DNA of 36,902 bases from Parvibaculum sp. (GTDB lineage Bacteria > Pseudomonadota > Alphaproteobacteria > Parvibaculales > Parvibaculaceae): NCBI GenBank assembly GCA_030682415.1, contig JAUXOE010000121.1, forward strand, positions 1-36,902, given 5' to 3'. The notes under the pieces are model-generated. The model was not told the DNA's origin. It saw only the letters and a program-made list of their open reading frames with translations, and did no database searches. A program made the translations under genes and the position numbers. Positions within the stretch are counted from its first letter, which is position 1. Each line of letters opens with the position of its first letter. Positions 14,764 through 23,543 of the stretch are shown here, piece by piece.

Positions 14764-18030
<3,267 letters not shown>

Positions 18031-21189: not shown

Positions 21190-21393
21190 GTGGTTGAATT
21201 CTTTCATATGGGCGGCTATGCGGCTTATGTCTGGCCGGTCTATGCGCTGGGGCTTCTTGTGCCGCTGGCGCTCGCTGTTCAGAGCCTTGCCGACTACCGG
21301 CGTCAATTGCGCCTGGCGGAGGCGCTGGAGCGCGAAGCGGGCGGGCGCGTCCGCCGCGCCGCGCACAAGCCGGACACGGAGCAAGGGCTGTGA
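21190..21393 (+). CDS. ccmD: Heme exporter protein CcmD
   Basis: 67 aa; FHMGGYAAYVWPVYALGLLVPLAL; between ccmC and ccmG. Confidence 0.9.
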   Translation: MVEFFHMGGYAAYVWPVYALGLLVPLALAVQSLADYRRQLRLAEALEREAGGRVRRAAHKPDTEQGL

Positions 21394-21956
21394 AAATTCC
21401 GTTCAGGCTTGCCGCTCTCGTGCCCGTCGCCATCTTCCTGCTTCTTGCTGGATTTTTCTTTGTGGCGATCTATCGCGGTGACCCGTCGCGTGTCCCCTCG
21501 GCGCTGATCGGTCGCTATGTGCCCGAATTCGAACTGCCGCCGGTTCCGGGCCTCGACCGGCCGGGTCTGGCCACCGCCGATTTCGGCACCGGTACGCCCG
21601 TCATCGTCAATGTCTGGGGATCGTGGTGCGTACCCTGCCGGGTCGAGATGCCGCTCTTGGTGGAGCTCAGGCGCGTCGCCGACGTGCCGCTCTACGGCAT
21701 CAACTACAAGGATGACCCCGCCGCTGCCCGGCGCTTCCTTGCCGAGCTCGGCAATCCCTTCGATCGCATCGGGCGCGATACGACGGGGCGGGCGTCCATC
21801 GAATGGGGTGTCTATGGCGTGCCGGAAACCTATGTCATCGACGGCAACGGGCGCATTGCGCTCAAGCATGTCGGCGCGGTGACGCCGGAGGCGATTTCCG
21901 GGCAGATCCTGCCCGCGTTGCAGGCGGCGCGGCATGCCGCGCCGCCCGGCAACTGA
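21390..21956 (+). CDS. ccmG: Thiol:disulfide interchange protein CcmG/DsbE
   Basis: GSWCVPCRVEMPLL; YGINYKDDP; VYGVPETYVIDGNG; GTGA overlap with ccmD. Confidence 0.94.
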   Translation: MKIPFRLAALVPVAIFLLLAGFFFVAIYRGDPSRVPSALIGRYVPEFELPPVPGLDRPGLATADFGTGTPVIVNVWGSWCVPCRVEMPLLVELRRVADVPLYGINYKDDPAAARRFLAELGNPFDRIGRDTTGRASIEWGVYGVPETYVIDGNGRIALKHVGAVTPEAISGQILPALQAARHAAPPGN

Positions 21957-21959
21957 GGT

Positions 21960-22535
21960 TCAGCTCTTCTTGCGGCGTGCGGCCGGCTTTTTTGCCGCCG
22001 GCTTGCGGGCCGGCTTCTTGACGGCGCGCTTGGCCGGCTTTGCCGGCTCGGCGTCTTCCGCCTTCATGCTTTCGATAGCGCCGTTGAGGTGGCTGAGCGC
22101 CTTCATCAGTTCCGATTGCACCGATTTCGGCAGGGCTTCCAGCAAGGCCCGCTCGGCGGCCAGCGCCTTCGGCATCGCGCCCTTCAGCGCGCGGCGGCCG
22201 GCGGCGGTCAGGCGCACCGCATTGGCGCGCGCGTCTTCGGCGGTGCGGCGGCGGGCGAGCAGGCCGTTCTTGATCATGCGGCTGATCATGTCGGCCAGTG
22301 TCGAACGGTCAATGCCGGTGCGGTTGACGAGATCGGTCTGGCTCAGGCCCTCTTCCTCTTCGACCGCGAAAAGCACGATGAACTGCCGCGGTGTCAGCGT
22401 GCTGGCGCCCATCTGCTGAACGAACTGGTCATATGCAAATTGCTGCGCACGGCGCAGAAGGTGGCTCAACGAGCTTTCGAGATCGAAACTTCCGGTCGAC
22501 TTTTTGGCTGCCATTCGTCTGTCCTCTGGTGTCAT
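21960..22535 (-). CDS. MarR-family transcriptional regulator with basic Lys/Arg/Ala/Pro C-terminal tail (alternative start 22514)
   Basis: wHTH TLTPRQFIVLFAVEEEEGLSQTDLVNRTGIDRSTLADMISRMIKNGLLARRRTAEDARANAVRLTAAGR; tail PAKPAKRAVKKPARKPAAKKPAARRKKS. Confidence 0.9.
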   Translation of the reverse strand: MTPEDRRMAAKKSTGSFDLESSLSHLLRRAQQFAYDQFVQQMGASTLTPRQFIVLFAVEEEEGLSQTDLVNRTGIDRSTLADMISRMIKNGLLARRRTAEDARANAVRLTAAGRRALKGAMPKALAAERALLEALPKSVQSELMKALSHLNGAIESMKAEDAEPAKPAKRAVKKPARKPAAKKPAARRKKS

Positions 22536-22543
22536 CTGGAACT

Positions 22544-22566
22544 ATTCGACACGCGTGTGTCCGAAT
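22544..22566. promoter_or_regulatory. Candidate MarR operator: ATTCG-ACACGCGTGT-GTC-CGAAT
   Basis: 10-bp perfect palindrome ACACGCGTGT (22549-22558) flanked by ATTCG/CGAAT half-sites, immediately upstream of the marR start. Confidence 0.45.
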
Positions 22567-22937
22567 ATCGGGGGTGAATGTTTCTGGCTCATGTCCTTGC
22601 GGAATTTTCCCGGCCGGGCCCTTGGCTTAAGGCAGGATATTTTCCGGTCGGGCGGGTCTCCCATCGCATGGAGAAATGGATCGGGCACATCGTCGGTTGC
22701 GTTCTGGCAATGCCGGGCGCGCCGCACTATCCTCATATGCACCCGCAGGGCCCTGTCTTGCAAGAGGAACGGGACCACGAAGCAAGAAGAAATCTCGAAA
22801 TCAGGATAGGTCTGTGCGCGGACGGTCCCTGTTATGCGTTGCACAATCGGTCGGACGATCCGGGCGAAATGCCGGCCGGCGCCACGCGTATGAGGGAGAA
22901 TTATTGTAGTTCCGTAGGCGGATCAAAGAGTTGCGAT

Positions 22938-23543
22938 ATGACAAATTTGACGAAAATGAGCGAGTCCGGGCGCGTTCCGGCACCTCATGAACCCGGCGCC
23001 GATCACGATCCGGCCTTTACCCGCCGTGTGCCAACCGGCGATAATTTGCCGCGCGACATTTGCGACCGCTGCGGTTTCATCCACTACGTAAACCCGAAAG
23101 TCGTGGTCGGGTCGGTCGTAACCTTCGAGGGACGCATCCTGATGTGCCGCCGCGCCATCGAACCGCGCAAGGGCTTCTGGACGCTGCCGGCGGGCTTTAT
23201 GGAACAAGGTGAGACGGCCGAGCAGGGCGCGCGGCGCGAAGCGCGCGAAGAAGCCAATGCCGAGATCGTGCTGCAGGACCTTCTTGCCGTCTACTCGATC
23301 CCGCGTATCGCCCAGGTGCAACTGATGTACCGCGCCACGCTTTCGACCCCCTCCTTTTCGGCGGGGGAAGAAAGTCTCGAGGTGGCGCTTTTCACCTGGG
23401 ACGAAATTCCCTGGGAAGAGCTGGCTTTCCCCAGCGTCCACTGGGCCTTGACGCAGTTTCGCTCGGTCGAAGGCCAGATCGCGATTGCGCCTTTCACCAA
23501 TCCGGACGGTGAAACCGGCAATCAGTTTCCGCCGCCCCGCTAG
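22938..23543 (+). CDS. Nudix hydrolase
   Basis: Nudix box GFMEQGETAEQGARREAREEANAEI; CDRCGFIHYVNPKVVVG upstream. Confidence 0.92.
   Translation: MTNLTKMSESGRVPAPHEPGADHDPAFTRRVPTGDNLPRDICDRCGFIHYVNPKVVVGSVVTFEGRILMCRRAIEPRKGFWTLPAGFMEQGETAEQGARREAREEANAEIVLQDLLAVYSIPRIAQVQLMYRATLSTPSFSAGEESLEVALFTWDEIPWEELAFPSVHWALTQFRSVEGQIAIAPFTNPDGETGNQFPPPR

Follow-up and report, generated by a model that had tools for sequence, protein, structure and literature searches.

The region analysed here, referred to as the window, is a 36,902 nt stretch of a Parvibaculum sp. metagenome-assembled genome (MAG; contig JAUXOE010000121.1, assembly GCA_030682415.1), and it contains a gene for a MarR-family regulator on the minus strand. 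The open reading frame initially annotated as encoding this protein spans 21960-22535; however, the ATG at 22535 was rejected as the start, as the codon is missing from the orthologues. Comparison with these orthologues instead places the conserved start at the internal ATG, position 22514 (MAAKKSTG...), giving a marR orthologue at 21960..22514 that encodes 184 aa plus the stop codon. Most marR orthologues likewise start with MA(A/P)(R/K)K..., preceded by a Shine-Dalgarno-like AGAGGA. The gene is convergent with a conserved ccmG/dsbE-type thioredoxin gene (21390..21956, plus strand) and divergent from a conserved NUDIX hydrolase gene (22938..23543, with an approximate start, plus strand). This arrangement is found across many alphaproteobacterial families, within a conserved order consisting of acnA, ech, ccmA-B-C-G, marR, the NUDIX gene, ispZ, ftsY, mtaB and dapF.

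The marR product matches Pfam MarR_2 (E=9e-15), its winged helix-turn-helix (wHTH) core being encoded at 22224..22397 on the minus strand; the scores were 55 bits against a cut-off of 27 for PF12802, and 45.5 bits against 24.6 for PF01047. An AlphaFold2 model built with 26 orthologues predicts the core confidently, with helices at residues 16-35, 42-53, 59-66, 70-82, 104-125 and 130-155 and strands at 86-89 and 99-102: this is the MarR fold, in which helical dimerisation arms (16-35, 104-125 and 130-155) are arranged around the wHTH. Structural matches found with Foldseek included BpsR, PcaV and HosA. None of the NCBIfam MarR subfamilies (Saro_0803, HpaR, SlyA, BagL/FevM and others) reached its equivalog cut-off, the best being Saro_0803 with 66.5 bits against a cut-off of 200; the core is up to 96% identical to those of its nearest named relatives, which are Parvibaculum MAGs.

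MarR family regulators bind a palindromic operator, often at their own divergent promoter, and a ligand relieves the binding. From the type of its core, the protein encoded in the window is expected to be a sequence-specific DNA-binding regulator, and its operator is likely to lie in the marR-NUDIX intergenic region. A candidate is found in this gap, directly upstream of the marR start: the inverted repeat GACAC-GCGT-GTGTC (22548..22561), situated within the near-palindrome TATTCGACAC..GTGTCCGAATA (22543-22567 of the window). The pattern GAYAC-N4-GTRTC, with paired changes in both arms, is shared between this genome and the three relatives closest to it. Repeats of GACAC..GTGTC with other spacers were also observed at loci L015, L017, L020 and L022.

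The C-terminal tail and its distribution

The protein ends in a tail of 28 aa, PAKPAKRAVKKPARKPAAKKPAARRKKS (21963..22046, minus strand), of which 13 residues are K or R and none is D or E. The initial annotation had described just such a basic tail free of acidic residues, and this was borne out by a run score in which K, R, A and P count positively and residues outside K/R/A/P/T/V/S are penalised: the tail scores 35, a value reached by none of 20,000 shuffles of its own residues (the best scoring 29.5). Over most of the tail, the AlphaFold2 pLDDT stays under 50, with values of 43-47 in its last three blocks. Hence it is a terminus of the H1-like kind, predicted to be disordered, rich in K, A and P and almost devoid of acidic residues. 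A Pfam scan of the protein gave no linker-histone match and no HC2 match, and the likeness to animal linker histone H1, as judged from the sequence, is one of composition. Only one of the 22 MarR_2-domain matches in this genome, the window MarR itself, has the tail; that it might be a general trait of MarR proteins in the lineage was therefore rejected.

The distribution of the tail was instead found to follow the locus. Basic tails were defined as at least 18 residues past the last helix with a net charge of at least +5, and homologues were considered syntenic if a correctly oriented NUDIX or ccmG gene lay beside them, as was the case for 71 of 105 distinct homologues. A basic tail is present on 64 of these 71 syntenic copies; the equivalent figure for homologues without this neighbourhood is 10 of 34, mostly sister sequences from a single family, f52, with mixed K/E tails. 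All of the Parvibaculaceae MarR orthologues read bear the tail. In a maximum-likelihood tree of 77 MarR cores, rooted at the midpoint, the tailed proteins group with a few reduced ones in a clade of 63 (support 100/95), with a tail-less sister group of 14, and a phylum-wide sample provided only four weak matches outside the Alphaproteobacteria. On the evidence of these comparisons, the MarR tail is a feature of one ancient alphaproteobacterial orthologue at the ccm/NUDIX locus.

Some syntenic orthologues are tail-less, these being found in GTDB family f78 and three other families. At the f78 loci L143, L145, L196 and L205, the MarR gene adjoins the NUDIX gene yet encodes no tail, making these natural tail-less controls. 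Reading through downstream of the gene at L136 did not reveal a hidden tail. One further contig, L169 (NZ_JAUSLG010000099.1), is titled as a Phenylobacterium sp. MAG, although its marR groups inside the Parvibaculaceae in the tree; it is probably mis-binned or mislabelled.

Composition, length and selection

Across the orthologues, it is the composition of the tails that is shared rather than their sequence, with charge and disorder being kept. The Parvibaculum tail takes the form KPAAKKPAARRKKS, that of Aquisalinus and f126 KKAPAKKAAAKKAPAKK and that of f3 KRKTAKRRTKRKAPK, whilst G464 has KKKATKKKAT repeats and the f4 proteins have short, arginine-rich ends; in f52 and in some of the f126 proteins, the tails mix K with E and the net charge is lower. 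Tails are usually 20-140 residues long, with the extremes ranging from stubs of a few residues to 858. Much of this range is found within f3, an order of a single genus, the three known species of which have tails of about 48, at least 389 and 858 residues; the second of these (L192, G238) is a lower limit, because the sequence runs off the end of the contig.

The longest tail belongs to a MarR orthologue of 1,000 aa (L191, G157:C111, position 5194 onward), composed of a 142-residue core and an 858-residue tail with 313 K, 213 R and only two acidic residues, arranged in K/R/A/T repeats. The repeat units are 57/114 bp long and agree with their consensus at about 65-80% of DNA positions, and the copies have a pS of 0.75 and a mean nucleotide identity of 0.78. 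Repeat pairs were chosen for their amino acid identity, such that a low pN is partly built into the comparison; the synonymous saturation is not. As the repeats are alike as protein but saturated at synonymous sites, the array is old and selected, rather than the product of recent slippage. It is also unlikely to be a mis-assembly, given that the copies differ synonymously, that exact DNA repeats extend to 46 nt at most and that the gene has a normal start, an ATG with a good Shine-Dalgarno site, and is terminated by a stop codon.

In close Parvibaculum pairs, the pN/pS ratio is 0.18 for the tail and 0.036 for the core, indicating that the tail is under looser, but still purifying, selection at the protein level. 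Of the possible single mutations in the tail of the window MarR, 8.6% would introduce an acidic residue and 20% would remove a basic one, yet the compared tails have no acidic residues at all. Taken together, the pN/pS ratios and the exclusion of acidic residues point to selection for charge and disorder.

Lysine-rich extensions on other proteins

The initial annotation had also noted a second H1-like extension, at the N terminus of the aconitase encoded about 4 kb from marR, and had proposed that the lineage has a habit of appending such sequences that may not be specific to aconitase. The acnA extension is indeed present, being about 190 aa long and encoded at about 17440-18030 on the minus strand. 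A scan of 763 kb of the 2.97 Mb MAG, enriched for contigs matching a lysine-tail DNA pattern, identified lysine-rich runs scoring at least 20 in 12 of the 1,886 ORFs that were 100 aa or longer, relative to 1.3 per shuffled set, although this does not represent an unbiased genome rate because the contigs were partly picked by that pattern. Besides the window MarR, the carriers include aconitase, CarD (L087 2813-3961), ArgJ (L123 3016-4488) and a pyruvate-dehydrogenase-type E1 (L091 1337-2428), each with an N-terminal extension, those of the last three being lysine/alanine-rich; malate dehydrogenase (L094 15984-17078), with a C-terminal lysine/alanine-rich extension; topoisomerase I and trigger factor, both extended at the C terminus; and a TfoX_N protein. 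ArgJ, the E1 and malate dehydrogenase act in metabolism, where nucleic acid binding is not normally required of an enzyme. Another carrier is a stand-alone HC2-like protein (PF07382; L088 11380-11859, minus strand, 160 aa), composed almost entirely of KKAPAKK-type repeats. Related genomes also contain HC2-like matches, some stronger than others; these are scattered with respect to MarR tail length, short or long, leaving unsupported the suggestion that the 858-residue tail replaces a stand-alone protein of this type.

With so many host proteins involved, the trait extends beyond aconitase, and to this extent the initial proposal holds; the outcome that it had named as refuting, a scan finding no other tails and orthologues devoid of them, was not observed. 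Orthologues of both window proteins retain their extensions, but to different phylogenetic depths. In the Parvibaculaceae loci that reach acnA (L152-L184), the aconitase extension is roughly 180-270 aa long with almost no acidic residues, whilst the aconitases adjoining marR in families f3, f105 and f126 are without it. The acnA extension is therefore restricted to the Parvibaculaceae and differs in age from the MarR tail, which is found class-wide. Hence a single regional event was rejected, and one common habit behind the two tails is likewise unsupported. This serves as a warning that neighbouring genes with similar tails can acquire them independently.

A possible role for the tail, and comparison with known systems

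We consider it on balance probable that the disordered basic tail adds a sequence-independent, electrostatic affinity for DNA to a dimeric, operator-binding MarR regulator at the ccm/NUDIX locus. The wHTH core would recognise the operator, probably in the marR-NUDIX intergenic region, whilst the two tails of the dimer would bind neighbouring or second DNA segments, thereby raising the local concentration and residence time of the protein and possibly bridging DNA. Tail length would drift through the gain and loss of repeats, because selection keeps charge and disorder and not sequence, and would thus have reached the size of a linker histone, at 858 aa, in one order. Non-specific association with DNA, which the initial annotation had suggested alongside a possible phase or nucleoid localisation, is plausible by analogy with HupB, topoisomerase I and FrzCD, where basic tails on other cores have this effect. 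The C-terminal helix of MarR structures is part of the dimerisation domain and is remote from the recognition helices and the face that contacts the operator, so that direct help from the tail at the operator is not obvious. Extending from the dimerisation domain, the tails may instead reach a second DNA segment or more distant flanking sequence. The tail-less syntenic orthologues, and the lower charge of some K/E tails, count against this reading.

A basic, disordered tail would equally plausibly bind any polyanion, such as RNA or polyphosphate (polyP), and these are the chief rival partners in view of AlgP and the many tailed enzymes in the same cell. Binding to polyP, RNA or ribosomes might localise or titrate the regulator, for instance releasing it from DNA as polyP accumulates. 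AlgP of Pseudomonas, which has an H1-like tail of KPAA repeats, goes to polyP granules and is linked to their spacing, but is found on the nucleoid if polyP is absent (PMC9239181). The same MAG has tails on trigger factor, the pyruvate-dehydrogenase-type E1, malate dehydrogenase, ArgJ and aconitase, which are not known DNA binders, and the conserved neighbour of marR is a NUDIX hydrolase. However, the core of the MarR protein is a DNA-binding domain and no result of this analysis points to polyP. We regard a partner other than DNA as rather unlikely.

Less probable still is that the tail is a tolerated low-complexity run, arising through codon-repeat slippage in GC-rich genomes and having little or no function of its own. 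The great differences in length within one genus, the loose conservation of the sequence and the similar runs on unrelated proteins of the same genome would all be congruent with such an origin. This explanation is nevertheless already weakened by the class-deep retention of the tail on one orthologue, when it occurs on none of the 21 other MarR_2-domain matches, by the exclusion of acidic residues and a pN/pS below 0.2, and by the repeats of the 858-residue tail, which are saturated with synonymous changes yet unbroken over 858 codons. The least probable alternative, by a little, is that the tail is mainly a regulatory switch, with reversible lysine acetylation or partner binding toggling non-specific DNA affinity: mycobacterial HU is acetylated, modulating its DNA binding, and the lysine repeats of Streptomyces TopA are proposed targets (PMC5676037, PMC7398561), but no conserved site pattern was found in the MarR tails.

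Returning to DNA as the putative partner, the range of tail lengths, from the usual 20-140 residues up to 858 in a single lineage, implies that a sequence-specific DNA-binding protein grades toward a chromatin-like one. A bolder reading, which we think doubtful, is that the regulator of the marR-NUDIX locus represents an incipient chromatin protein: growth of the tail from around 15 to 858 residues would convert an operator-binding core into a nucleoid protein resembling a linker histone, which would load at specific sites and then spread along or bridge DNA, with tail length tuning the balance between specificity and compaction across the Alphaproteobacteria. The orthologues form a natural series for studying how the charge and length of a tail balance operator recognition against bulk DNA binding, and allow one to ask whether a repressor can turn histone-like.

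The tail type, in HU and topoisomerase I, and MarR proteins are each already known, separately. In the open-access literature, which misses most subscription papers, we found no published MarR family with an H1-like tail, no description of a class-wide orthologous MarR in which such a tail is conserved or of the 858-residue variant, and no account of a transcription factor family in which a basic tail persists class-wide whilst its length varies more than tenfold.

BpsR, PcaV, HosA and CouR share the fold and sequence of the MarR core, the best relatives in the PDB being 6pcp/6pco (about 30% identity, with a TM of about 0.9 on the target), 4fht, 8xzu and 6c28. The solved cores found are about 130-160 residues long; the matches end at the core, and the matched entries describe no H1-like tail for them. 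The chlamydial-type HC2 family (PF07382) is matched by a separate small protein of the MAG with a tail-like composition; this protein stands alone, and Pfam gives no HC2 match for the MarR protein. AlgP also has a long K/P/A-rich tail of H1-like composition, attached to a small N-terminal domain, but is not a MarR protein. Elsewhere, FrzCD is held on the nucleoid by a positively charged tail (PMC5716589), and a survey of low-complexity regions in prokaryotes linked lysine enrichment to DNA binding (PMC6821194). The C-terminal lysine repeats of topoisomerase I, known from Streptomyces and Mycobacterium and also noted in Caulobacter, slow its dissociation and raise its processivity (PMC7398561); like the MarR, this is a DNA protein with a basic C terminus, and the TopA of this MAG is tailed too, although it is an enzyme with an unrelated core and not a transcription factor. 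A further parallel is HupB, in which a folded DNA-binding core likewise precedes a disordered, lysine-rich C-terminal tail, the PAKK/KAAK motifs of which have been likened to histone H1/H5 and the deletion of which weakens association with DNA (PMC5676037). The core of HupB, however, is that of a non-specific architectural protein, whilst the MarR core is expected to be sequence-specific.
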